From: a virus
Length of the DNA stretch: 64,000 nucleotides
Direction: 5' to 3' (one strand)
Virus record (IMG/VR): IMGVR_UViG_3300007510_001324
Span: 1-64,000 of that record
Part shown: positions 3,956 to 18,081 of the stretch, one piece after another
Numbering within the stretch: position 1 is the first letter of the stretch
Layout of the letters: each line of letters opens with the position of its first letter
Made by a program: the position numbers and the translations under genes
Notes under the pieces: model-generated
Databases searched by the model: none
Seen by the model: the letters and a program-made list of their open reading frames with translations, nothing else
What the model was told of the DNA's origin: nothing

Positions 3956-5158
3956 TTATTCACTCTGAGGCAACAAGTAGGCCGAAAGGAAAGGAATTGA
4001 CATGTCTAATAAAAAATTGGTGGTGGTTTGCTCTGGCTCAACCGCCTGCACCCCATCAATTTTTACCCAATATATTTTTTTATTATTTACCATATATTTA
4101 CGCCAATTGTCGATATATGTTAAATTTTTGTCTGCTATATGCAGATCATTCTCTAATAAGCGGGTAGCGTATTTTCTAGTTAGCTCGTCTTCGCTTCCAG
4201 TTAGTATAGCTTTATAGTAAGAAAGTGTATCAGAGATAGCTCTATCCATCGGAACCGCACGTCCGCCTTCCTGGTTTGAATGGTATACGTCTTTGAATCT
4301 ATCTACTTCTCTTTGACGTTTACTGTTGTCTATTTTTAATTTATCTATTAAAGGATAGAAAGAAGTGGGGCGTAACCTGGTAACGTAATATTTATAGTAG
4401 CCATAATCAGTTTTATCATTAGTTTCTTGTCCAAGACTAGCTACTAGTTGTCTGAAGTTAAACCAAAATGTTCGCCTTTGTTGAACACATTTAAATTTTG
4501 GGCGAGATAAGGAATCATGTTTTCCTTCCCAACCTGCTCCGTCTCCCCCAAGAGGCAAGTTACCCCACTTGTTAAATAGCCCGGAGAACAGCCCTAGTCT
4601 ATAGTCATAACTATGCGCTAAAAAATCATCAGTCAGATTCATTCTTAGGGTAGTTATGCTAGGATTAACGGAACGTTTTTTGACACTATTTAATGCTATA
4701 TTGTTGCCAATTTCCCAAGCTTCTTCAAACCCACCCGGTAGATCTGGGCCTGGGACCTCTAATTCTAAAGGCAAAGGCACCCAGGCTCCAAGCGCGTCTT
4801 CTCCCGATATATTAGTTACTATACCAAGATTTTTATCAAAGGCCAAAATACTATGACCTCTTATAACTTTATTACGCAGTTTGAAATCGTATAGCTCTTT
4901 TTTATATTCTACTTTCTTTAACGTGCGAGCTCTTACTAGTTTATATCTATCCACATCAAAGGTAAATATTTTTAGATATGGAGGCAACTTTCCATCTTTA
5001 TATCGTTGCCAAAATACATTGTACTTTATATTTTCAAATAGTATGGTACCGCCACGACGTGCTACTCCTATTAACCCAGGCAATTTACCGAAGTCTTGGT
5101 TAAAAGGTTTTCTAAAATCATATGCAACCAGTATATGTTGACATGGACCGTGTAGCAT
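3956..5158 (-). CDS. Hypothetical protein co-transcribed with the fused RNA polymerase
   Basis: The 400-residue product follows the polymerase gene with a TAATG overlap at 5156-5160, so it is translationally coupled to it. I do not recognise the fold. The N-terminal third is basic and beta-rich (KLVRARTLKKVEYKK, then HSILAFDKNLGIVTN), loosely like the last blocks of Hint/intein domains, but the splice-junction residues are not convincing. The middle has a Gly-rich loop (LGGDGAGWEGK). Operon position suggests a partner or accessory factor of the polymerase; this is inference only. Confidence 0.7.
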   Translation of the reverse strand: MLHGPCQHILVAYDFRKPFNQDFGKLPGLIGVARRGGTILFENIKYNVFWQRYKDGKLPPYLKIFTFDVDRYKLVRARTLKKVEYKKELYDFKLRNKVIRGHSILAFDKNLGIVTNISGEDALGAWVPLPLELEVPGPDLPGGFEEAWEIGNNIALNSVKKRSVNPSITTLRMNLTDDFLAHSYDYRLGLFSGLFNKWGNLPLGGDGAGWEGKHDSLSRPKFKCVQQRRTFWFNFRQLVASLGQETNDKTDYGYYKYYVTRLRPTSFYPLIDKLKIDNSKRQREVDRFKDVYHSNQEGGRAVPMDRAISDTLSYYKAILTGSEDELTRKYATRLLENDLHIADKNLTYIDNWRKYMVNNKKIYWVKIDGVQAVEPEQTTTNFLLDMSIPFLSAYLLPQSE

Positions 5159-8100
5159 TAGTATCTACCATCTTCTTTTTTACCAAACTCAGTTCCGTAC
5201 ATGTATGCAGGTATAGGATCAACTCCGTGAATATCTGATACCAGTCCACGAGCTGCGGCTTCTTGTACTGTTCCGCGCAACCTGTTTACGCTTAATCTAC
5301 TTAACCAGTCTGCCCGGTCATGAGGTAACATGTCAATGGATTTAAAGTATGGCTCATACTGTATTAATTCTTTACCCTCAGCTTTTCGTTTTGTATTTAA
5401 TTTCTTTAGATGCCATATATCGGCAACATCCCCTCTAATTAAATCACTATCTTCCGGAGCTTCTGTGATGCGTGCCTGCGAACCCATAGCACGAACTACT
5501 GTTTCATAGGTACGCTTATGGAATTGGCCATCAAACACATCATCCAGTTCATCCACGATATACTTCTCAGCATCTAGATGTGACTTTAGCTTACTTAACT
5601 CCTGGGGCTTAATGATGCCTTCTGATAACAAATCTCCCTTGCTTACTTTGCTTCCTTCTTTTACTTTTAACCCCATACCAGCAGGGATTCTATGTGCTAT
5701 ATCCCCTATAGTTACATCATAACCCCCTAATGGGTTTTCTGTTACTTTACTAACCTCGCCAGAAACTTCAGACAAGGTAGCCTTACCGCCTAACACAGCG
5801 GGCACCTTTACTAATTGGATAATACGAGGGAACCCCGCAACCAACATTGATGTACCTTTAGCCGTTCCGCCGCTATGGAAAGTCTGCATCTGTAATTGTG
5901 TACTACGCTCTGTCATAGTTTGGCCATCTATGATGCCAACATTATCTCCGACTTTAGGAGGCTTATTATTAGCCATTAAACCATAGCACTGAATACAAAC
6001 TCCTTTTGCGGTCTCACAGGTCAGGGGTGAGCGTACTTTGATAGTTTTTAATTTTTTAGCTTTAGCTTTTCGTAATAGCTCGGTGGTAACTAATTCGTCT
6101 TTCCTTCCAACCCCTACTATTTTTTCAGCTAAAAATCTATCTACTGCATTTTTATCATTGACTGCTATTTCGATGCCGTCAGTTGTTTCACAATCTTCTT
6201 CCGTGATAACAAGATTTCTAGTCACTGCTAATAAGGACTTATTGAGAAACCCAGTATCTTGCGTATTAATAGCTCTATCTACAGCCCCTTTACGTGCCCC
6301 ATACATAGAGTTCCAATAACCTGCCACATCTTGTCCCTCTGTCCAGGATTTAACATTAGGTACTGGGATAGGATTATTGTGCACATCTAAAAGAACACCC
6401 GGCATTGATAAGATTTGCTGAGCAGAGTTAGCTACTTTTTTACCTCCAGCGCCAGACTCCTGCATAATACGTAAGTTGTTTTCTCTGCTATATAGCTTCT
6501 CTTTGTCTTTAACAGCCTTAGCCTGCCCAACTGCAATCTTGTTGTCTATGCCCATGAAAGCATTTACTACTTTCGTATCGGCAGGTTTGGGACCTACTTT
6601 TCTCCAAGTATCCGCTACTGCTTTGTCCCTAAAAGATCTATCTATATCTAGATCATTAAGGGAAATACTAAACCCGTGTTGATGTGCGGAGTCTGCTCCC
6701 AGACTCTTCAGGGAGTCTGCAACTTGGCCGTAGTCTTTATCAGATTCAAGAGCTATTCTGGTCATTAATTCGTTTACATTCTTTCCATTCATTTCGTTAG
6801 AGCGTACAAATTTATGGAACTTTTTAGGTACGGATTTAACCAATATCTCTCTTCCAAGGGTAGTTCTACCCTTGCCCTTAATTGTTATCTCTGTAGTCAA
6901 GGGAACTTTAGCTTTAGTTGCCGCAGCAATTGACTCGTATTCTTTAGTGCTTTTCTTTTCAGTTCGGGTGAGTAACCATATACCTAATTGGTAATCTTGG
7001 CCAAAGCCTTGTATAGGCATTGTTTTAGCTCCGTGCATGCCCGGCATAAATACATTACGAGAGGGCATCATGCCATATGCTTCTTCTACGGCCTTATCTG
7101 TAACCGGTACGTGTACAGACATTGTGTCGCCGTCAAAGTCTGCATTAAACCCTTTTGTCACCAAAGGATTAAGCTTGATAGCATTGCCTTCTACGTTAAT
7201 TGGATTAAATGCCTGCAAACCAAACTTGTGAAGAGAAGGTGCGCGGTTAACCATTACTGGACGTTTTTTCATAACAGCTATTAGAGCTTCTTTAGCTCTA
7301 TCCGTTTTCTTTTCTATTTCCTCCATAGCTTGTATAGGTTGAAAACCTTGGTCTTTAAGTTCTTTCATTACAAAAGGTTTATAAATGTCCCACCCCATCA
7401 CCTCAGGAATGCCTATCTGATCTAAACCTAAGCTAGGTTCAAGAGTAATTGTGGATCTACCGGTTAAGTCTTGGCGTTTTCTCCAGAGCTTGCTCTGGAT
7501 AAAGCCATACTTGGGAGACGTACCTTTTTTACCAGACAGTTGAGCAAGTGCTCCAAGTCTTTTCTCTTGTCCAAACCCTACCGGGTCTGTTACGCCCTGT
7601 ACTTCACTAACTGCCTCATATAAACTTTTGCGAGTATTACCACCCAATTCCTTATAAGCAACACTGCCCATCGTCTTGTATTGTTTAAGACTGTTGTTTA
7701 CTAAACCTAAATTTCTGTATGACCAATTGATAGGATTAACCATTAAGTCCCCACTAGGAAGTGGATAGACAGGTCTAAATACCGGAGGTAAAACAGGAAC
7801 TTTAGATATCATTAAATCAGTTGGCTTCAGCTCAAACTTTTTCAATGCCTCCAGATATCTTATTTTTTTATTTAATTTATCTACATTTTGTGGAGCTGTG
7901 GTCTGTAGAGATTTCTTGGTCTTGCGTAAGTCTGCGTTAATATCAACCTTGCCTAAGGCAGCTTCTATAGCCGCAAAGCCAGTCTTACCATCTAACTCTT
8001 CTTGTTCGTTTATTATTTTCATATACTTGCTATGCGTGATACCAAGAATAGAAGTAATAGATTTTTGCATGAGTGGAGAGGGGATCTTTTCTTCAAGTTT

Positions 8101-11100
8101 AATATATCCCCACTTCTTTCCTTGCATTCCGCCTGTGATGTTTTGATCAAACAGGCCGCCTTTAATACTGGCAAGGTTCTTACCAATCAACATGTGCCCA
8201 GGATCTTTGATTTCCGATTTCGTGCCGGTCAGCTCAGTAACGGCTTTGTCTGTTAAAGGAGATGCTTGTATATAATCTCCCTTTTTCTCGACATTAACGC
8301 CAGAGGCTTTAAGATAGTTAACCATCTTATCCCAGGCAAAGTTTCTATTGGGTGGAGGTATAGGTAATCCTAGTTGAATGTTTCTCCATATTTCGTCGTT
8401 CTTTTGACCTTTAATAGCTGTAGAATCATACAGGTTTGCTTTCGCCCCATGCGCCATGGCTACGTAAGTGGTAAGCTGATCAAAAGCTTGACCACCATCA
8501 TCTCCTCTAGTGGGCTGTTCGTCCATACTGTAAGAGCCATAAGATCTATGTTTTAACTTATGTTCTACAACATGCATGAGTTTAAGTATATGCTGGTTTC
8601 CTACGAACACTTTGTTAGTAAAAGATTTACCATCTTTCCCATCAGTAAGCTCTTCGTCAAACTCTAACCCATTTTTCTTGAATTCTTTCTTTAATTTAGC
8701 TAAATGGTCTGTTCCATCAAAGTTGGCTACTTCATAATCTTTGCCTGTTTTTTCTGCTAGCTTACCAGCGGCCGTTTCTAATAACTGGCCAATATTCATA
8801 CGACCCGGTACACCAAACGGGGAGGCTATAACATCTATTGCTTTGCCATCTTTGGTATGAGGAGCCTCATCATCTTTAATGATTTTGGATACAATCATCT
8901 TGTTGCCATAACGACCAGCAATTTTATCGCCTATTTCCATAGGGGCAATTACTTTTACATGCACATTGTAACGCCTACGCGTAAGTTTACGCACATATAA
9001 TACTTTACCTCGGTTATGGCCGTCATACTCCAAAGTACTTCGTGCGTAAGGAACAGATAGACTCTTATTCATAGTTTTTAGAATCTTCTCTTCGTCTGTG
9101 TATTCTTTAGGAGCGAGGCCAGCAATCAACACATCATTAGGATCTACTTCTGATCCTTTTTTAATAATACCTTCATCATCTAATTTAGCATAGTTTTCTG
9201 GTGTCATGCTGTCCGGATAATAAGCTAATAATTTAGCTTTATCTATCATGCCTTCTTTGGGCGCTGTATAAGAGAATTTTAAAATTTTCTCAGAGGTCAT
9301 TCTATTGGCAAATGACTCAGTTACGACAACCGAATCTTCGAAATTATAGCCCTTCCAAGGCATATATGCTATCTTAGCATTAACACCTAAAGCAAGTTCG
9401 CCCTTATCCTGGAAGTTATTCTCTGCAAGTTTATCCCCTGGGTATACTTTACTACCAGGAGCTACTACGGGTTTGCTATTTATGAAAGCTTCTTGGTTTA
9501 ACGGGAAATCATTGAATAATCCAATCTTGTGTGTTTTGTTATCTTGGTCTTTTATAAATATGTAATCTTTTGTGACTTTGGATACAGTACCCTCTTCTAA
9601 CTCATTAGGAACTTTAGGATTAACAGTGTCACTGATAGCTTTGCCAAAAGTTTGTCTCTTGTTGGGCCCCAGCACACGTACATGCGGCTTATCAGGATTA
9701 GATACTGCAACAGCCTGCCCAATCTGTTTACTGGCAACCATAGCGCGGTTACCAGATACCGTGCCCAAAAATGGAATCAAGTTACTTTGGAAAGAGAACA
9801 TAAAGGTTGGATTATGTATATATCCATCTATTTCCTTACCTGCAATAAGTAATGATCTGCCCTTCCAGTTACCTTTTACTAGAGCCCCGACAGGCTTAAC
9901 TTTTCCATCTACCACTTTATATTGGTCAGGAAACCCTATCTTACGATCCCACATTTCTTTTGGTGTAAATTCTTTTATACGGCCTGCCGGTGTTATAACT
10001 TTAGTTACAAGTCCTTTTTCTGTTTTAGAAACACCTATAGCTAGCGGTAAGGTAACACCAATTTTACCAGTTTCTGGTGTATTAATCGGATCTAAGAATC
10101 CAACTGTAGAAGGATGTACATCTCGTACATTCATAGTTACAGCATGCCTGGATTGTATTCCACCAGTTCCCATAACGGTTGTTTTATTCCATTCGCCTAA
10201 AATAGCTGCTGGATTAGTCTGCGGCGGGGGACTACTAAGTTCACCAACTGAGAAGAACTCCTTAATAGGATCACCGTAAGTATTAGTAGGAATAATGTCT
10301 CTGATGGTTTCTTTATTATCTAAACGCCATTTAATCTTGTTTGTAATCTTCGTAGTACGCGCATCTAGAAAGGCTTTAAGCTGGTCTTGTGGTGTGAACA
10401 GCTCTTTGAATACCAAGGAATCTCTTTCATCTTCTTTTTCTTCTCTACGCATTACGCGTAACAATTTTGAAGAAGTTGCTAGTAGTAAGTCTTTATTTAC
10501 CTTATTAAAACCTTGGCCCAGGGTAAGCTCTGTTGTTTCTGAGGATACTGAGGTATCTTCTAAATACTTTTTAAAGAGCCTTAGAGCTTCTGCGTAGTCA
10601 TTTGTTTTGTGATGCAATAAAGTATCTACTAATTTTATAATAGATCCATGTAGCTCTTTTATTCCAGCCCTAGCATTAGCCTCGAATATCTCTTTACCCC
10701 ATGCTCGGCGCATAGGTTCATCTGGCATGCCGAGAGCATGTAAAATAGCATATATAGGATAGTTTTGATTACCAGCCTGAAGGAAGAATACCTCTTTTTT
10801 CGGGTCCAGCATCATTTTGAAGTTGAAGCCCTTTTCCAGGTTAAACTGACTTTCAAACTGGCCATTAGACTTTTCACGCGTGTATACACCAGAACGAAGA
10901 CGAAACTGATTGAGAGTCTGGTACTCATTCCCCTCGATGATAACTGAAAATCTATTTGTCATCCTCGGTATAGAGGTGATTTTCATTTTCTTAGCTCTAG
11001 AAATAACTTTACCGGTTTCATTATCTATTAAATCAAAATCGGCGTATACAGGCATTACCCAAGACTTACCATCTAGCTTAATTTCTTTCTGGGCTGGCAA

Positions 11101-11262
11101 ATCATTGATCGGGGCTTTGGTCTCATCTGCAATAATATTTTTAATACGTATACTATTCTTTTTACCCTTTATAGGAAATTCCTTGTAAAGGGCATCAACT
11201 ACCGACGACTGCATCAAAAGATCTTGTTCGTTGATGTTTAAGGAGTCAACTCTCTTCGCCAT
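5158..11262 (-). CDS. Fused RNA polymerase beta-beta' subunit
   Basis: A single 2,034-residue chain carries both catalytic subunits of a bacterial-type multisubunit polymerase. Beta hallmarks come first (VRDVHPSTVGFLDPINTPE, GYNFEDSVVV, GDKIAGRYGNK, RGDDGGQAFDQL). Beta' follows, with the catalytic NADFDGD at residues 1373-1379 and a late Cys cluster (EEDCETTDG, then LTCETAKGVCIQCYG) matching the second beta' zinc site. The bridge region after beta (GGLFDQNITGG, then GKKWGYIKL) sits where bacterial beta' has its four-Cys N-terminal zinc domain, yet has no cysteines. Length is about 700 residues less than E. coli beta plus beta'. It presumably transcribes phage genes with a phage or host sigma factor. 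No alpha or omega gene is seen here. Confidence 0.97.
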   Translation of the reverse strand: MAKRVDSLNINEQDLLMQSSVVDALYKEFPIKGKKNSIRIKNIIADETKAPINDLPAQKEIKLDGKSWVMPVYADFDLIDNETGKVISRAKKMKITSIPRMTNRFSVIIEGNEYQTLNQFRLRSGVYTREKSNGQFESQFNLEKGFNFKMMLDPKKEVFFLQAGNQNYPIYAILHALGMPDEPMRRAWGKEIFEANARAGIKELHGSIIKLVDTLLHHKTNDYAEALRLFKKYLEDTSVSSETTELTLGQGFNKVNKDLLLATSSKLLRVMRREEKEDERDSLVFKELFTPQDQLKAFLDARTTKITNKIKWRLDNKETIRDIIPTNTYGDPIKEFFSVGELSSPPPQTNPAAILGEWNKTTVMGTGGIQSRHAVTMNVRDVHPSTVGFLDPINTPETGKIGVTLPLAIGVSKTEKGLVTKVITPAGRIKEFTPKEMWDRKIGFPDQYKVVDGKVKPVGALVKGNWKGRSLLIAGKEIDGYIHNPTFMFSFQSNLIPFLGTVSGNRAMVASKQIGQAVAVSNPDKPHVRVLGPNKRQTFGKAISDTVNPKVPNELEEGTVSKVTKDYIFIKDQDNKTHKIGLFNDFPLNQEAFINSKPVVAPGSKVYPGDKLAENNFQDKGELALGVNAKIAYMPWKGYNFEDSVVVTESFANRMTSEKILKFSYTAPKEGMIDKAKLLAYYPDSMTPENYAKLDDEGIIKKGSEVDPNDVLIAGLAPKEYTDEEKILKTMNKSLSVPYARSTLEYDGHNRGKVLYVRKLTRRRYNVHVKVIAPMEIGDKIAGRYGNKMIVSKIIKDDEAPHTKDGKAIDVIASPFGVPGRMNIGQLLETAAGKLAEKTGKDYEVANFDGTDHLAKLKKEFKKNGLEFDEELTDGKDGKSFTNKVFVGNQHILKLMHVVEHKLKHRSYGSYSMDEQPTRGDDGGQAFDQLTTYVAMAHGAKANLYDSTAIKGQKNDEIWRNIQLGLPIPPPNRNFAWDKMVNYLKASGVNVEKKGDYIQASPLTDKAVTELTGTKSEIKDPGHMLIGKNLASIKGGLFDQNITGGMQGKKWGYIKLEEKIPSPLMQKSITSILGITHSKYMKIINEQEELDGKTGFAAIEAALGKVDINADLRKTKKSLQTTAPQNVDKLNKKIRYLEALKKFELKPTDLMISKVPVLPPVFRPVYPLPSGDLMVNPINWSYRNLGLVNNSLKQYKTMGSVAYKELGGNTRKSLYEAVSEVQGVTDPVGFGQEKRLGALAQLSGKKGTSPKYGFIQSKLWRKRQDLTGRSTITLEPSLGLDQIGIPEVMGWDIYKPFVMKELKDQGFQPIQAMEEIEKKTDRAKEALIAVMKKRPVMVNRAPSLHKFGLQAFNPINVEGNAIKLNPLVTKGFNADFDGDTMSVHVPVTDKAVEEAYGMMPSRNVFMPGMHGAKTMPIQGFGQDYQLGIWLLTRTEKKSTKEYESIAAATKAKVPLTTEITIKGKGRTTLGREILVKSVPKKFHKFVRSNEMNGKNVNELMTRIALESDKDYGQVADSLKSLGADSAHQHGFSISLNDLDIDRSFRDKAVADTWRKVGPKPADTKVVNAFMGIDNKIAVGQAKAVKDKEKLYSRENNLRIMQESGAGGKKVANSAQQILSMPGVLLDVHNNPIPVPNVKSWTEGQDVAGYWNSMYGARKGAVDRAINTQDTGFLNKSLLAVTRNLVITEEDCETTDGIEIAVNDKNAVDRFLAEKIVGVGRKDELVTTELLRKAKAKKLKTIKVRSPLTCETAKGVCIQCYGLMANNKPPKVGDNVGIIDGQTMTERSTQLQMQTFHSGGTAKGTSMLVAGFPRIIQLVKVPAVLGGKATLSEVSGEVSKVTENPLGGYDVTIGDIAHRIPAGMGLKVKEGSKVSKGDLLSEGIIKPQELSKLKSHLDAEKYIVDELDDVFDGQFHKRTYETVVRAMGSQARITEAPEDSDLIRGDVADIWHLKKLNTKRKAEGKELIQYEPYFKSIDMLPHDRADWLSRLSVNRLRGTVQEAAARGLVSDIHGVDPIPAYMYGTEFGKKEDGRY

Positions 11263-12422: not shown

Positions 12423-13601
12423 ATGGCAATCACAGTACAACAAAAAATAAAAGAAAACGAACAATTTCTTAACTCCTTATACGTAGAAAGAGAAGATGCA
12501 ATTCATGGAATGCCTTTAGCATTGTATTCCAACAGCAATATATTATTGTTAGGTCCTCCAGGGACAGCAAAAAGCGCGTTGATTCGTGGCTGGGCAAAAG
12601 CATTTGGTGGTACTTATTTTGAGTGGCTGGTAACAAAATTTTCTACGCCAGACGAACTATTTGGGCCGATTTCAGCCAAGGGCTTGGAGGAAGATGACTA
12701 TAGACGCGTTACTTTGGGTAAATTACCAGAATCAGATTTCGCGTTCATAGATGAAGTATTTAAGGCTAACAGCGGTATTCTAAACTCGCTGCTAACTATT
12801 ATGAATGAACGCCTATTTCCTAATGGCAGGGATGCTAACCCAAACATACCACTAAAGTTAATGATTGGTGCGTCAAACGAGATACCGGCAGAGGACGATG
12901 GGCTGGATGCCATGTACGATAGATTCCAATTTAAATACAGAATTGGATATATTAACGATTCCGCAGAATTTAAAAAAGCTTTAGGAAACGATTACTCGTT
13001 AAAAATTCCTCATACTATTACTCAAGCAGAGATACAAAAAGGTATGAAGCAAATTCAGGAAGTTACTTACGATGAAAACATAGTTAACTTTATGATAGAC
13101 ATCAAAAGAAGTCTAGAACAAAAGACAATCGTGGTAACCGACAGAACCTGGGTGAAGGCCGTTCATATAATGAAAACAGAAGCCTTTCTGCGAGGAAGAA
13201 ATCACGTATCAGAAGAAGATTTCGAAATCTTAAAGAATGTACTATGGTCCAAACCTGAAGATGAAAGAATCGTGCATATAGCCGTTCTTACAGTCACTCT
13301 TCCTGAAAAAGCTAGAATCATAGACACTTACGAAAAGGCTGTAGACGTTTATAAAAAATTCAAAGAGTCAAGCAAGAAGCAGTCGGATAAGAGTACTCTT
13401 GGTCTCGACACTATGGATAAGATAGGCGCAGCAATCAAAAAGATAGAAGGATCTTTCAAGCAGCTTAGGGAACGCGGAAAAAATCTAGATTCATTGCAAA
13501 TATATAGCAAGAAACTGCAACGCATGAATCAGGAAGTAGTTAAGGAAGTTACAGGAATGTCTGTATCCACTACTACCGAAAGCGGAGATCTTAATTTATG
13601 A
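12423..13601 (+). CDS. MoxR/RavA-type AAA+ ATPase
   Basis: 392 residues. Walker A is GPPGTAKS at 44-51 and Walker B is FAFIDE at 106-111, followed by the MoxR-type sensor stretch NSLLTIMNERLFPNG. These ATPases form hexameric rings that remodel or load metal cofactors into targets, usually with a VWA-domain partner. The next gene, overlapping by four bases, encodes exactly such a partner. The C-terminal 80 residues are helical. A MoxR-VWA pair in a phage could remodel host or virion protein complexes; the target is unknown. Confidence 0.9.
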   Translation: MAITVQQKIKENEQFLNSLYVEREDAIHGMPLALYSNSNILLLGPPGTAKSALIRGWAKAFGGTYFEWLVTKFSTPDELFGPISAKGLEEDDYRRVTLGKLPESDFAFIDEVFKANSGILNSLLTIMNERLFPNGRDANPNIPLKLMIGASNEIPAEDDGLDAMYDRFQFKYRIGYINDSAEFKKALGNDYSLKIPHTITQAEIQKGMKQIQEVTYDENIVNFMIDIKRSLEQKTIVVTDRTWVKAVHIMKTEAFLRGRNHVSEEDFEILKNVLWSKPEDERIVHIAVLTVTLPEKARIIDTYEKAVDVYKKFKESSKKQSDKSTLGLDTMDKIGAAIKKIEGSFKQLRERGKNLDSLQIYSKKLQRMNQEVVKEVTGMSVSTTTESGDLNL

Positions 13602-15184
13602 AAAAAGTAGACAATAGTATATTATCGAAGAAAAGGGGATCATTTACCGATCCCCTTTTTAATTATAAGCATACTATCTACAACGACGCATTCGATATAT
13701 CTAACTTCGAGCAATTAAAGGCGGATGCTCCTAAAATAAACGAATTACAAGTACGCGGGCAGCAAGAATATGAAAACTTCACACCGCTATATCAAGACGT
13801 ATATTCTTCATTGTATAGATACCACGCAAAGCTGAGACCAGAGTACGAAATGGATCATGAGTACTTGCTTAACAGAATGGTTATGGAACACATAACTGAG
13901 TCAGCTAAATACAAAGAGCTGAGAGCAATAACAAGAATGGACCCTTTGGCTACGGCAGTGGCAACAGAAACTTTTGGTGAAAAAGCTCTCGAACTAGCAA
14001 AAGGGCTAAAAGAGCAACAGAAAGCGTTTAACGAGGCTGCGGAGCAAGCCGCCAAAGACATGAAAGAAGCGGAAGAAGAAGCACAGGCTGCAGCGGAAGC
14101 TGAAGATGAATCAGAAGAAGGAGAAGAAGGCAACGACACTGCAAAAGCTAACGCCAAGATAAAAATGGACGAAGCCAGAAAACAGCTAGAAGATGCCTAC
14201 AAAGACCTAAAAAATTGGGATAAGAAAAAACTTACCCCAGCTATGAATAAAATCATGAACGAAACCGTTCGTATAACCGCTGATACCAAGGATACGTTGT
14301 CCCAGTGGGGATTGGGTGGCGGAGATGGTGGCCAGTCCTTAAATTATAGACAGCAAATGAATATGCTGAACAAAATTAAGAATAGCTACAAGTTAACAGA
14401 AATAGCTAAAATAGCCGGTCGTTTAAAAATGATCGCGACTAAGATAGGAAAAGAAAAAATCAAACGAGGAAGCGAAGAAGTATATTCCGTAGAACGCGGC
14501 AGCGATTTATCTAGAATAGTTCCTTCCGAGTTAAGTAATCTCTCTAGCAGTAATAAGTTGCGTAGACTAATGTTTAAGGCAGATTTAGTAGATGGAAAAT
14601 TATTACAATATGCCTTATCCGGACATGCTAAAAAATCAAAAGGCCCAATCATATGCTGCATTGATGAATCTGGCAGCATGGGTGGGCAGTTAGAATACTG
14701 GGCAAAAGCAGTAGCATTAGCATTGTTGGATACGGCTCAACGAGAAAACAGAGACTTCCTTGTGATCCACTACTCAGGCGAATACAGCCCGCGCCAGTTG
14801 CCGGTGCATGATTTTCCAAAAAACTCGCCGCCAGATATCGAGAAAACAATTGCAATGGCAGAAAAGTTTATAAATGGTGGCACAAATTTCGAACCACCTT
14901 TAAAGTTAGCAATGGAATATATAGATAACAAGCCAGAATTCTCAAAAGCTGATATTGTATTTATCACAGACGGCGAAGCCCCGCTGACCAATGATTTTGT
15001 AGACAAATTCAATAAATGGTGCAAAGAGAAAAAAGTTCAAGTATTAGCAATACTAATGGACTCTGGGTATTATTCCTCACAGACGCTTAATCAAATATCT
15101 AGGATGGTAACAAAACTATCAGATATTAACGACAAGGGCACTGAAAAAGAGGTAATGCTAAACATATTCCAAACCCTTAACTAA
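13598..15184 (+). CDS. VWA-domain protein (CoxE/ViaA-like)
   Basis: 528 residues. The C-terminal von Willebrand A domain carries the MIDAS motif DESGS at 356-360, then GGTNFEPPL and FITDGEAP for the remaining metal ligands. The N-terminal half is helical, with a long acidic, Ala/Glu-rich coiled stretch near residues 140-200. Together with the overlapping AAA+ gene it makes a RavA-ViaA-like two-component machine. Its stop codon lies inside the first arm of retron RNA unit A, so the two elements are physically joined. Confidence 0.88.
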   Translation: MKKVDNSILSKKRGSFTDPLFNYKHTIYNDAFDISNFEQLKADAPKINELQVRGQQEYENFTPLYQDVYSSLYRYHAKLRPEYEMDHEYLLNRMVMEHITESAKYKELRAITRMDPLATAVATETFGEKALELAKGLKEQQKAFNEAAEQAAKDMKEAEEEAQAAAEAEDESEEGEEGNDTAKANAKIKMDEARKQLEDAYKDLKNWDKKKLTPAMNKIMNETVRITADTKDTLSQWGLGGGDGGQSLNYRQQMNMLNKIKNSYKLTEIAKIAGRLKMIATKIGKEKIKRGSEEVYSVERGSDLSRIVPSELSNLSSSNKLRRLMFKADLVDGKLLQYALSGHAKKSKGPIICCIDESGSMGGQLEYWAKAVALALLDTAQRENRDFLVIHYSGEYSPRQLPVHDFPKNSPPDIEKTIAMAEKFINGGTNFEPPLKLAMEYIDNKPEFSKADIVFITDGEAPLTNDFVDKFNKWCKEKKVQVLAILMDSGYYSSQTLNQISRMVTKLSDINDKGTEKEVMLNIFQTLN

Positions 15185-15394
15185 ATATTTTAGAATCCAT
15201 CCATAAAAGATGTTACGTCTTTTCTAGCACAAAGTCCACGACATAAGAAGGCACGATAGCCAGGATCCCGGGTAACAAACTAGTTCATGCTAAAGCGTTA
15301 TCACCTAAACTTTTTAGCATTCACAAGTAAAGCTACCTGGGATCCTGGCCCCCAAGTGCTAATTCCCTAAAGAATTACAAGTAAAATATTTAGT
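15180..15394 (+). ncRNA. Retron-type msr-msd RNA, unit A
   Basis: Arms 15180-15192 and 15382-15394 pair perfectly over 13 bp (ACTAAATATTTTA with TAAAATATTTAGT). A G follows the 5' arm directly (TTTTA|GAAT) and CAAG precedes the 3' arm, as in retron a1/a2 junctions. Inside are an 8-bp hairpin with a TTA loop (15205-15223); a long msd-like hairpin, 15259-15273 with 15335-15349 (15 pairs, one G-T); an inner 8-bp stem, 15287-15294 with 15313-15320; and a small hairpin at 15361-15376. It would be the longest template of the three units. Confidence 0.75.
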
Positions 15395-15402
15395 GCAACT
15401 CC

Positions 15403-15499
15403 TCCTTTATAGCGAATCAATGGAGTGCTTCGCTCCGTATGGATTCAATTCCGCGATCAGTAGATGAACGTATATAGTGCTTACAACAAGTATAAAGGA
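15403..15499 (+). ncRNA. Retron-type RNA, unit B
   Basis: Arms 15403-15411 (TCCTTTATA) and 15491-15499 (TATAAAGGA) pair over 9 bp. G follows the 5' arm and CAAG precedes the 3' arm, as in units A and C. The main internal hairpin is 15414-15446, with an outer GAATC/GATTC stem and an inner 6-pair stem, GGAGTG to CGCTCC (one G-T), around a 3-nt CTT loop. No clear long msd hairpin is visible, so it may be a short or minimal copy. Confidence 0.6.
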
Positions 15500-15671
15500 T
15501 AGTTTTAGAATTCAAAGTAGATGAGACGTAACGTCTTAATAAGTAAATTAATAGTTAGCCGCCTACCTTAGGGGGTGGCTAAAAAGTTAACAAGCTGATA
15601 AACGGGCCCACCAACTGGGCACGTTTACGCTCGCGGGCCGTAACAAAAAGACTCGGCCCCAAGTAAAACTA
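15500..15671 (+). ncRNA. Retron-type msr-msd RNA, unit C
   Basis: Arms 15500-15507 (TAGTTTTA) and 15664-15671 (TAAAACTA) pair over 8 bp, with the same G|GAAT and CAAG junctions. Internal hairpins: 15522-15538 (7 pairs, TAA loop); 15555-15563 with 15574-15582 (9 pairs, one G-T); 15599-15627 (6 pairs, one mismatch, then 5 pairs); and 15635-15640 with 15654-15659 (6 pairs). Its 5' arm abuts unit B with no gap. Its 3' arm ends one base before the Shine-Dalgarno GGAG of the RT gene, so folding could affect RT translation. Confidence 0.7.
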
Positions 15672-15679
15672 GGAGTAAT

Positions 15680-16510
15680 ATGAAGATTGATTTGTCCGCT
15701 ATAAATTATAAAACGTTTCGGATTCCAAAACGAAGAGGAGGGCATAGAGAGATTAATGCCCCGGATGAAGAAACAGCAAAAATGCAATATGATATATTAT
15801 ATAATTTCCTATACAAATTTTCAGCCCACCCCATAGCGCACGGTTTCATTAAAAATAGAAGTCCGCTATCCAACGCGAAGTATCACGTGGGCGCAAAAAT
15901 ATTAGTAAAATTAGATATTAAAGATTTCTTTCCTTCTTTGACGGAGGCTAAAGTAAAAAGACTTTTTGAATACCTATTATCACTCAAGAAGGTTAGTACG
16001 AAGAACGATATAGATGATCTAGTAAAAATGGTAACATACAAAGGGCATTGTCCACAAGGAGCATGTACTTCCCCCGCCATCGGGAATCTAATCCTGTTAG
16101 GAGTGGATAAAAAATTACAAGAACTACAGCACGATTTTGATTGTGTTATAACGAGATACGCAGATGATATAGTATGCTCGTCAAAAACTAATATGGATCT
16201 TCCTAAGATCATCCCAGTTATTAAGAAACTATTAGAACTAAACGGCTTTAAGTTAAACCAAAAGAAAATTAAGGTACAAAGGCAACATAAAAGAATGTCT
16301 GTCACGGGCGTAGTAGTAAATGAAAAGCCCAACATATCACGTACAAAAAGACGAAATTTAAGAGCGCAGCTACATAATCTAGAAGGTAAGACAATCAGTA
16401 AAAAAGAACATCAAGTGTTAAGTGGAAAAGTAGCCTGGATTAAACAGCTTAATCCATTACATGGCGAAAAGTTAGAGAAGCAATTAGAAGGGATACAAAT
16501 TAACACATGA
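15680..16510 (+). CDS. Retron-type reverse transcriptase
   Basis: 276 residues, near the lower end for retron RTs. Motifs in order: IPKRRGGHREI (14-24), retron-specific NAxxH (NAKYH, 65-69), metal-binding LDIKDFF (78-84), QGACTSP (126-132), YADD (160-163) and VTG (208-210, retron region Y). A basic thumb follows (RTKRRNLRAQL). QGxxxSP and VTG argue against a diversity-generating retroelement RT, which has an SQ motif. It should prime from the 2'-OH of a G in its cognate RNA and make msDNA. Shine-Dalgarno AGGAG lies just before ATG. The preceding 495 nt hold three candidate RNAs. Confidence 0.92.
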   Translation: MKIDLSAINYKTFRIPKRRGGHREINAPDEETAKMQYDILYNFLYKFSAHPIAHGFIKNRSPLSNAKYHVGAKILVKLDIKDFFPSLTEAKVKRLFEYLLSLKKVSTKNDIDDLVKMVTYKGHCPQGACTSPAIGNLILLGVDKKLQELQHDFDCVITRYADDIVCSSKTNMDLPKIIPVIKKLLELNGFKLNQKKIKVQRQHKRMSVTGVVVNEKPNISRTKRRNLRAQLHNLEGKTISKKEHQVLSGKVAWIKQLNPLHGEKLEKQLEGIQINT

Positions 16511-16517
16511 GAGGCCT

Positions 16518-16724
16518 ATGGCAAAATTATCCGCCATCTTAGACTCAATAGACGGCGTGCTCTTATTGACAAATCAGCTAATTAATTATACAATTAATAG
16601 TGGAGATGATATGCTAGATCTGCCAGATGAACTAATCAATATAGGACAGAGAATAACTAGCAAAGAATATTTAAAATTAATAAATGAATATTTTAATATA
16701 AAGGAAGAAGATGGCAAAAACTAA
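16518..16724 (+). CDS. Small protein downstream of the retron RT
   Basis: 68 residues, acidic and helical, with no recognisable motif. It starts seven bases after the RT stop with a GAGAGG ribosome site and overlaps the next gene by 14 bases. Position makes it a candidate retron accessory protein, but it is far smaller than known retron effectors. An internal sigma70-like promoter, then GGAG and an in-frame ATG at 16611, could yield a 37-residue C-terminal product. Confidence 0.6.
   Translation: MAKLSAILDSIDGVLLLTNQLINYTINSGDDMLDLPDELINIGQRITSKEYLKLINEYFNIKEEDGKN
16566..16594 (+). promoter_or_regulatory. Internal sigma70-like promoter
   Basis: TTGACA (16566-16571), a 17-nt spacer, then TACAAT (16589-16594), inside the 68-residue gene. 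Expected start is near 16601. It would transcribe the GT4 glycosyltransferase apart from the retron cassette. It lies in coding sequence, so chance cannot be excluded. Confidence 0.5.
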
Positions 16725-18081
16725 AACACCGAAAGCAGTACAGAAAACTAAGAAACGAGTATTAATTTGGGGAGACTCTCCTAATGTACCCACCGGCTTT
16801 GGTATTGTATCTAAGAACCTATTTTCAGAACTACACAAAAAATATGAAGTAGGATTTCTGGGAATAAACGAACATGGTCTAAAAAGATACGATACTACTA
16901 AATGGTTTATCTACGGCATTGACCAAGGTGATCCTTTCGGGTACAAAAAACTGCCTCACATTATGAAAGACTTTAAAGCAGATCTGATTATCTTATTCCA
17001 AGATATTTTTAATATAGAGAATGCTATAAAAGTAGTACGGCAGAACGATATCAATGTACCAGTAATCACTTATTTTCCTGTAGATGGACATCCTTATAAT
17101 AAGGCATGGAACACTCTTTTTCAAAAGGGCAAAGTAAAAGAATCTGAACAGATTTTTGATATGGTACAAGAAGTAATTACATATACAGATTGGGCAGCAG
17201 ATGAAATAAGAGCAGCTATTCCTGTATCGGGCCAAAAAGAAATTCATACGTTGGCTCACGGTATAGATTTTAAAGCTTTCCACCCGCTACCAGAAAACAC
17301 TGTAGAAGAATTACGCAAAAAACATGGCTGGGATGATAAGTTTATGATTATAAACAACAATAGATTCCAACCAAGAAAACAAATGCTATTAACGTTGACT
17401 GCTACCTCAATGCTGTTTTATGGGTATAATAAATGTAATTGTGGGTTCTACTACCCAATAAATGAACATAAGTGCTCCCTGAACGGGTGTGGTCCAGAAG
17501 ATATAGCTGATGTAGTACCAGGAACTTTTGACATAGGTATTTACATACATGCAGCTAACCATGAAATGATGATGGGTCCTCCACCAGGATGTCTTTTAAC
17601 TGCATCGGCTTCTAATGCCGGGTGGTTACAACCAGAAGTAGGGGTTAACCTATTGTTAAGAAAAGAATCACCGTACTCTAAACCGCTTAGCGAACAAGAG
17701 CTAAATGAGCTTTATAATATGGCTGACATCAATCTTACAACGGCAATAGGTGAAGGGTTTGGATTTTCTTTAGGTGAAGCTTCGGCTACAGCTACAACCA
17801 CAATAGCTCCTAAAAATTCCGTTATGAGAGAGATCTTGGGTCCTCCAGGATCTTTTGTAGATAATGCAGGCATTTTCTCAATGGCAATGGATAATGGCCA
17901 TATGAGACCTGTGGTAAGCATGCCTAAGTTAATAGATACTTTAACAGAGCACTATGAAGCTTGGGTGGCTAATGGTAGAAAGAAAATTAGAAATCAACCA
18001 GCGCTTGACAGGATGAAAAAAGATTTTGACTGGCAAGACAAGAGAGATAAGTTATTAACCATAATTAGGAAATATGTATAA
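16711..18081 (+). CDS. GT4-family glycosyltransferase
   Basis: 456 residues with a GT-B fold pattern. The N-terminus is a nucleotide-fold start with GFG loop (RVLIWGDSPNVPTGFGIVS), and the C-terminal donor site contains INNNRFQPRKQM and EGFGFSLGEASATATTTIAP. A Cys-containing insert (CNCGFYYPINEHKCSLNGC, near residues 232-255) between them looks like a small zinc knuckle. It probably modifies phage DNA, virion proteins or host surface glycans together with the other two glycosyltransferase genes of the window. It overlaps its upstream neighbour and shares one base with the next gene. Confidence 0.85.
   Translation: MAKTKTPKAVQKTKKRVLIWGDSPNVPTGFGIVSKNLFSELHKKYEVGFLGINEHGLKRYDTTKWFIYGIDQGDPFGYKKLPHIMKDFKADLIILFQDIFNIENAIKVVRQNDINVPVITYFPVDGHPYNKAWNTLFQKGKVKESEQIFDMVQEVITYTDWAADEIRAAIPVSGQKEIHTLAHGIDFKAFHPLPENTVEELRKKHGWDDKFMIINNNRFQPRKQMLLTLTATSMLFYGYNKCNCGFYYPINEHKCSLNGCGPEDIADVVPGTFDIGIYIHAANHEMMMGPPPGCLLTASASNAGWLQPEVGVNLLLRKESPYSKPLSEQELNELYNMADINLTTAIGEGFGFSLGEASATATTTIAPKNSVMREILGPPGSFVDNAGIFSMAMDNGHMRPVVSMPKLIDTLTEHYEAWVANGRKKIRNQPALDRMKKDFDWQDKRDKLLTIIRKYV

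Follow-up and report, generated by a model that had tools for sequence, protein, structure and literature searches.

A putative natural array of three retron RNAs ahead of one reverse transcriptase in a large phage

The usual view of a retron is of a single reverse transcriptase (RT) with a single msr-msd RNA and at least one effector. In the virus record considered here an RT of the retron family stands directly behind three diverged tandem RNA units, and it is very probable that these are distinct msr-msd RNAs, likely to be carried on one transcript, from which the single RT would make three distinct msDNAs, i.e., that they form a natural retron array. That three retron-type RNAs precede one RT had been proposed in a preliminary description of this DNA, and it is supported by the family to which the RT belongs, by co-variation of the arms that close the units and by the presence of one triloop hairpin in each of them. 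The source record has 139,801 bases, and the window, i.e., the whole stretch of DNA that was analysed, is a 64-kb (64,000 nt) part of it. In window coordinates the features are:

12423..13601, + strand: MoxR-type AAA ATPase adjoining the VWA gene; a neighbour that is not counted with the retron
13598..15184, + strand: VWA-domain protein directly 5′ of the array, its 3′ end overlapping the first arm; not claimed as part of the retron
15180..15394, + strand: unit 1, putative msr-msd RNA; a1 15180-15192, a2 15382-15394, 13-bp perfect end stem
Within unit 1, + strand: G 15193; triloop hairpin 15205-15223; msd-like long stem 15259-15274/15334-15349; CAAG
15403..15499, + strand: unit 2, 97 nt; a1 15403-15411, a2 15491-15499, 9-bp perfect end stem
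Within unit 2, + strand: G 15412 (AGC context); triloop hairpin 15420-15438; CAAG
15500..15671, + strand: unit 3; a1 15500-15507, a2 15664-15671, 8-bp perfect end stem
Within unit 3, + strand: G 15508; triloop hairpin 15522-15538; further stems; CAAG
15680..16510, + strand: retron-family RT, 276 aa, with NAKYH, YADD and VTG motifs
16518..16724, + strand: 68-aa ORF with no assigned function, 3′ of the RT

The gap between the VWA stop, which ends at 15184, and the RT ATG at 15680 is 495 nt, as had been given in the preliminary description, and of its further statement that three units abut there, the part on units 2 and 3 stood, whereas units 1 and 2 are 8 nt apart; the 5′ arm of unit 1 begins within the 3′ end of the VWA gene. 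The arms and coordinates it had assigned were borne out, the end stems being perfectly paired over 13, 9 and 8 bp, and so was the layout of the junctions, with a G straight after the 5′ arm and CAAG straight before the 3′ arm in 3/3 units. According to that description the branching G directly follows a1 in Ec86 too. As to the wider context of the priming G, which is next to a1 in all three units, it is AGC only in unit 2 and AGA in units 1 and 3. Folded singly, units 1 (−68.6 kcal/mol, the whole unit closed) and 3 (−55.5 kcal/mol, also closed) form their end stems, and unit 2 does so only in part. The segment 15180-15679 folds 8 sd better than shuffles of it (z −7.95).

A feature absent from the preliminary description was first noticed in those folds of single units. 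Each window unit has, 3′ of the priming G, one hairpin of 7–8 bp (8, 8 and 7 bp in units 1, 2 and 3) with a 3-nt loop closed as [C/T]G-NNN-CG, and in the whole 64-kb window there are exactly three such hairpins of at least 6 bp, one per unit. In the related stretch L016 (6,350 nt) there are six, again one per unit, and in the closest relative, L002, three are within its four units and two elsewhere. Is the hairpin peculiar to these phages? Of 76 bacterial retron loci, 44 have it in the 500 nt 5′ of the RT, 36 of them once and 8 twice, where DNA downstream of the RT leads one to expect 0.166 per 500 nt, so a motif derived from the phage units recurs, mostly once, in separate bacterial retrons. 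Before other phage RTs it is rare (5 of 61 loci; 0.047 expected per 500 nt). According to PMC6868368, RT-Ec86 depends on an msr stem of 8 bp with a three-base loop, and for Ec86 the parts played by a hairpin of this sort and by the priming G are established there. Two distant phage RT genes have four triloop hairpins each upstream (L018, upstream of 4488, and L218:4016-4519), and are perhaps a second lineage with arrays; the L018 RT has a Cys-rich N-terminal extension.

The window RT is, to judge by its sequence, a member of the retron family. PADLOC retron RT profiles match it, the best being RT_XIII (7.7e-79), and in comparison with PDB sequences it matches the Ec86 RT at 3.3e-32. It has NAKYH for the NAXXH of region X, SVTG where region Y starts with VTG, and YADD, i.e., intact catalytic residues. 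NAXXH and VTG are each present in 14 of 16 validated retron RTs according to PMC6868368; among the clade RTs described below NAXXH is in 8 of 17, and the remainder have mostly GAXXH. The likeness to type XIII retrons, which lies in the shared best profile, is limited to the RT: 79 PADLOC families match it, those listed being mostly RTs of other retron types, and type XIII partner proteins have no match in the eight neighbouring ORFs. The locus is for the present not filed as type XIII. Searched with the RT, the 139,801-base record gives a single match, itself.

Scanning IMG/VR with the RT gave L002, whose RT is 76% identical, and L011-L017 (41–45%), and scanning it with the VWA protein gave L078-L090. 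Together with the window, 17 loci form one RT clade (SH-aLRT 99, in a quick tree of 110 rows that took in 39 of the 80 bacterial loci and left out the eight later loci considered below). The order VWA, upstream region, RT is common to all 17, with the VWA gene neighbouring the retron in 17/17, and the MoxR ATPase and VWA pair is present in the 8 loci compared. Conversely, the VWA loci L074-L090 have a clade RT downstream in 17/17, some being on contigs already in the set, while L091 has a different RT further away from VWA and the 28 VWA loci L092-L119 have no RT within the fetched stretch. By eye and scan together, there are three units in the window, four in L002 (one with a mismatched stem), six in L016, each with its own arms and own hairpin, two to three in each of L011 and L012, two in each of L013, L014, L078, L079, L082, L086 and L090, one to two in L085, one in each of L017, L083 and L089, and none or one in L084; L087 was left out of the counts as its matches are identical to those of L078. 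At least two units are called in 10 of 17 clade loci by a rule based on the stem and in 7 of 17 by a rule combining stem and hairpin. With arrays in related phages, the three-unit layout is not peculiar to one sequence. Two details of relatives may be recorded here. In L090:7086-8130 the VWA match stops at about 7086 and similar sequence returns some 1 kb further on, which looks like a gene split by an insert. Downstream of the L078 retron, L078:9596-10318 encodes a GP88-like protein (PF17338, E 3e-12), which has a CxxxCxxC stretch close to the N-terminus, and ORFs similar to it occur in several relatives.

The preliminary description had argued from the differing yet complementary arms that pairing looks selected, and had named relatives with arms varying without complementarity as what would tell against this. 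Comparison was possible for five units, window units 1, 2 and 3 with L002 units B, C and D, and two units of L013 with those of L014, correspondence being judged from order and the arms being placed by seeking pairing in each. Of 59 arm pairs, 37 were unchanged, 6 had changed on one side, 15 had changed on both sides and still pair, and 1 was lost (window unit 2 against L002 C). The 15 changes on both sides that keep pairing agree with the earlier argument, and with 1 of 59 pairs lost the relatives came out opposite to arms drifting out of complementarity. Between window unit 1 and L002 B, 7 of 13 pairs have changed on both sides, and arms exchanged between the two would match at no more than 6 of 13 positions. 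An unlikely alternative, that a single unit is a live msr-msd while chance has preserved the others as decayed or duplicated copies, can draw on the mismatched end stem of L002 unit C and on the single recognisable unit in L017, L083, L089 and L209, but in the window the arms are perfect and the hairpins intact in every one of the three units, and the changes on both sides that keep pairing, found between the window and L002 in units 1, 2 and 3 (with the one loss in 2/C), are not what decay leads one to expect.

When each of the 34 units listed is taken with its own two arms, 268 of 272 positions pair, as compared with 210 in the best of 10,000 re-dealings of arms; since the units were picked for pairing, this shows the diversity of the arms more than it proves pairing. 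In the window, L002 and L016 every a1 finds its longest pairing in the a2 of its own unit. Seen from a2 there is one tie, in L016 unit 6, whose a2 pairs over the same length with the a1 of unit 3. Whole-unit alignment was too gappy for a covariance model, and counts of arms and hairpins were used in its place. A G after a1 and a G before a2 are in 34/34 units, both being imposed by the search, and AG before a2 is in 32/34, being imposed by some of the searches and not by all. An a1 ending in TA, which no search imposed, is in 29/34.

How would such an array work? It would be transcribed, probably as one RNA, and each unit would fold by itself, its paired arms bringing the G after a1 beside the template end before a2. 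The RT would bind the triloop hairpin of a unit, prime from that G and copy the 3′ part of that same unit, so that three separate msDNAs may result. It is improbable that the units are instead RNA structures which the RT binds, or which act otherwise, as in regulation of RT translation or as a scaffold, with no separate reverse transcription: the array does lie directly 5′ of the RT start, and a hairpin and stems by themselves do not demonstrate reverse transcription, but the layout is that of retron priming, down to the a1 ending in TA in those 29 units, and the RT has kept its catalytic residues.

How many units would be found by accident? For the window the rule asked for 8 or more perfect pairs in the stem, a G following a1 and AG preceding a2, and was applied also to dinucleotide shuffles; 3 units were observed with a mean of 0.024 in 1000 shuffles, of which 0 reach 3; when the AG condition is dropped there are 5, as compared with 0.28 (300 shuffles, 0 reaching 5). 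By the stem rule the 17 clade loci have 32 units, where shuffles give 7.4 and no more than 14 in any of 300 rounds, which means that some single unit calls are chance. By that rule alone L011, L013, L014, L017, L079, L083, L085 and L090 are not individually unusual (25–92 of 300 shuffles reach their number), and no unit is called in L084 or L089. By the combined rule of stem plus hairpin, there are 30 units as against 0.31 in shuffles (largest in 200 rounds, 3), and on the rest of the clade stretches, 28 in 491,712 nt, both strands; doubtful among the 30 are the L013 and L084 picks and the 7-bp units in L011 and L012. By the time L078-L090 were fetched the hairpin motif had been set, but the thresholds of the combined rule were chosen after these were inspected. 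Eight loci were fetched after the rule was set and have 8 units, with 0.26 expected: three in L201, two in each of L217 and L218, one in L209, and none in L205, L212, L213 and L219. These eight were taken in from 58 first fetched, from which 10 on contigs already in the set, 3 copies of L213, L220 (truncated a little short of the RT match) and a further 36 loci that are more distant were left out. As units were sought by pairing and the hairpin was read off them, only the later eight and the bacterial loci, and in part the nine loci L078-L090, are independent tests. Chance hairpins in an AT-rich intergenic region have next to no prospect of being the explanation, for though the simple stem rule does yield its 7.4 units in shuffles of the 17 regions, the combined rule leaves chance well under one unit there and its excess is repeated in the later loci, and for the window chance is ruled out as not one of the 1000 shuffles reaches three.

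Having at least two units within 800 nt upstream also sets the clade apart from control loci, by the strict stem rule (7/17 as against 5/133; Fisher p 4e-5), by the combined rule (6/17, 9/133; p 0.002) and by hairpin count (7/17, 10/133; p 0.0007); 9 of 142 control loci were without 800 nt upstream, and L018 was removed for its four hairpins. For the eight later loci the corresponding figures are 0/8, 3/8 and 3/8. Two units are called by the combined rule in 9 of 74 bacterial loci, which were re-examined along with L175. These nine have a GC content of 0.57 to 0.72 and their shuffles give 0.21 to 0.72 units; being GC-rich, with two units reached in 2–9 of 100 shuffles in seven of the nine, they were taken as background. 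Second units may be present in L154, where 1 of 100 shuffles reaches two, and in L179 (0 of 100). L154, a bacterial retron of Myxococcales, has beside its RT one unit in which CGCAGTTA is directly followed by G, and then, after the triloop hairpin, CAAG directly precedes TAGCTGCG, so that the junctions are as in the phage units; the possible second one is a weaker call further up. Two units in L043 and three in L070, called by the stem rule, were treated as chance, neither locus having a triloop hairpin.

In six loci neighbouring units share an arm, the 3′ arm of one overlapping the 5′ arm of the next. In L002, L078, L082 and L086 the fixed rule calls both neighbours separately, with the first a2 overlapping the second a1, and L079 and L090 share arms with looser stems; the window units share none. 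As the shared segment is the template end for the unit on its left and provides the priming G for that on its right, both should not close together on one molecule. When such pairs are folded jointly the winner is unit 1 for L078 and L086 and unit 2 for L002 and L079, and neither wins clearly for L082 and L090; the shared arms may be a switch or mere compactness, between which the folds do not decide. A tentative wider picture, on balance rather doubtful, is that large phages carry expandable arrays in which units with self-pairing arms are gained and lost, with the shared arms in several serving as a built-in switch that chooses the msDNA.

How does the array compare with what is known? Going by its title, Gonzalez-Delgado 2024 reportedly concerns engineered retron arrays with several units together; those arrays are man-made, and the phage array is natural. 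In common with Ec86 (Retron-Eco1) and ordinary bacterial retrons as PMC6868368 describes them, the array has the RT family, the region X and Y motifs, paired a1 and a2, a priming G and a stem with a three-base loop, resembling the element that RT-Ec86 binds. It differs in that there is usually one msr-msd per RT in those retrons, and there are three in the window and up to six in a relative, and in that the window is without a recognised effector beside the RT. The testable features of a retron are present apart from strict AGC, which is confined to unit 2, and a known partner protein, and the three units depart from the architecture of one msr-msd per RT. Retron-Nex1 (Ne160) is described in PMC6868368 as having repeated msr and msd copies with no RT within a kilobase, and is akin in having several natural msr/msd copies in one genome, whereas the array units are diverged, in tandem and directly before the RT. 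In the literature searched, with subscription journals largely outside it, no description of a natural tandem msr-msd array was found, and within those bounds the novelty claimed earlier for one RT with three RNAs stands, Ne160 being an older partial precedent. If the reading as an array is true, one retron could make a repertoire of msDNAs (one RT, up to six RNAs), and there would be a natural design for multiplexed retron tools. Many diverged units served side by side by one RT would also permit a direct test of which msr parts are recognised.

Why would a virus need several msDNAs? In known retrons, according to PMC13158370, msDNA is a sensor or latch for an effector. Among the 8 neighbouring ORFs scanned no retron partner protein was found; JetC is matched weakly by the VWA gene (0.00087). 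An ORF overlapping the RT end occurs in 15 of 17 clade loci, the two without it being the window and L002. It is possible that the msDNAs themselves are the point, in that a set of them might serve as exchangeable baits for DNA-processing proteins of the host or of rival phages, with several targets covered together. As no known effector is near and the overlapping ORF is missing in the window and L002, such a role is favoured, weakly; at the same time the lack of an effector near the array leaves the bait idea itself without direct support. The overlapping ORF itself (L016:5750-6229 and equivalents) is of 154 to 214 aa and strongly diverged. Scans of four of the 15 up to E 0.1 gave nothing in PHROG or PADLOC, and no Pfam family matched them above its cut-off. 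An AlphaFold2 model from the 15 sequences has pLDDT 80 and no Foldseek match at E 0.001; a likeness to type III secretion chaperones (best VIA-align Z 7.5) is within the stated background and no function is claimed from it. The 15-sequence profile finds four chains among PDB sequences, at E 0.0011 or worse and with no common theme.

That an msd copies another part of the phage is not supported, as there is no second copy of the array in the 139,801-base record at E 0.001 and no meaningful match in the rest of the window (best E 0.38). Rfam has no match in the window at gathering score, and for window 15000-18000 there is no DNA match among 50,697 phage records, 57 of which have protein matches to that region, all below 60% identity. 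A sigma-70 promoter scan gave 2 sites, with 2.0 in shuffles; terminator-like sites number three, where shuffles give 0.5, and every one of them is on the minus strand. In L001, whose record has 189,182 bases as compared with 139,801, an identical array is present, which speaks against an assembly error, though both records could be of the same virus. Elsewhere in the window a 2034-aa ORF (5158-11262, − strand) encodes a fused multisubunit-type RNA polymerase with beta and beta′ domains together, matching Pfam RNA_pol_Rpb2_6 (E 8e-65) and Rpb1_2 (E 4e-26) and having NADFDGD.
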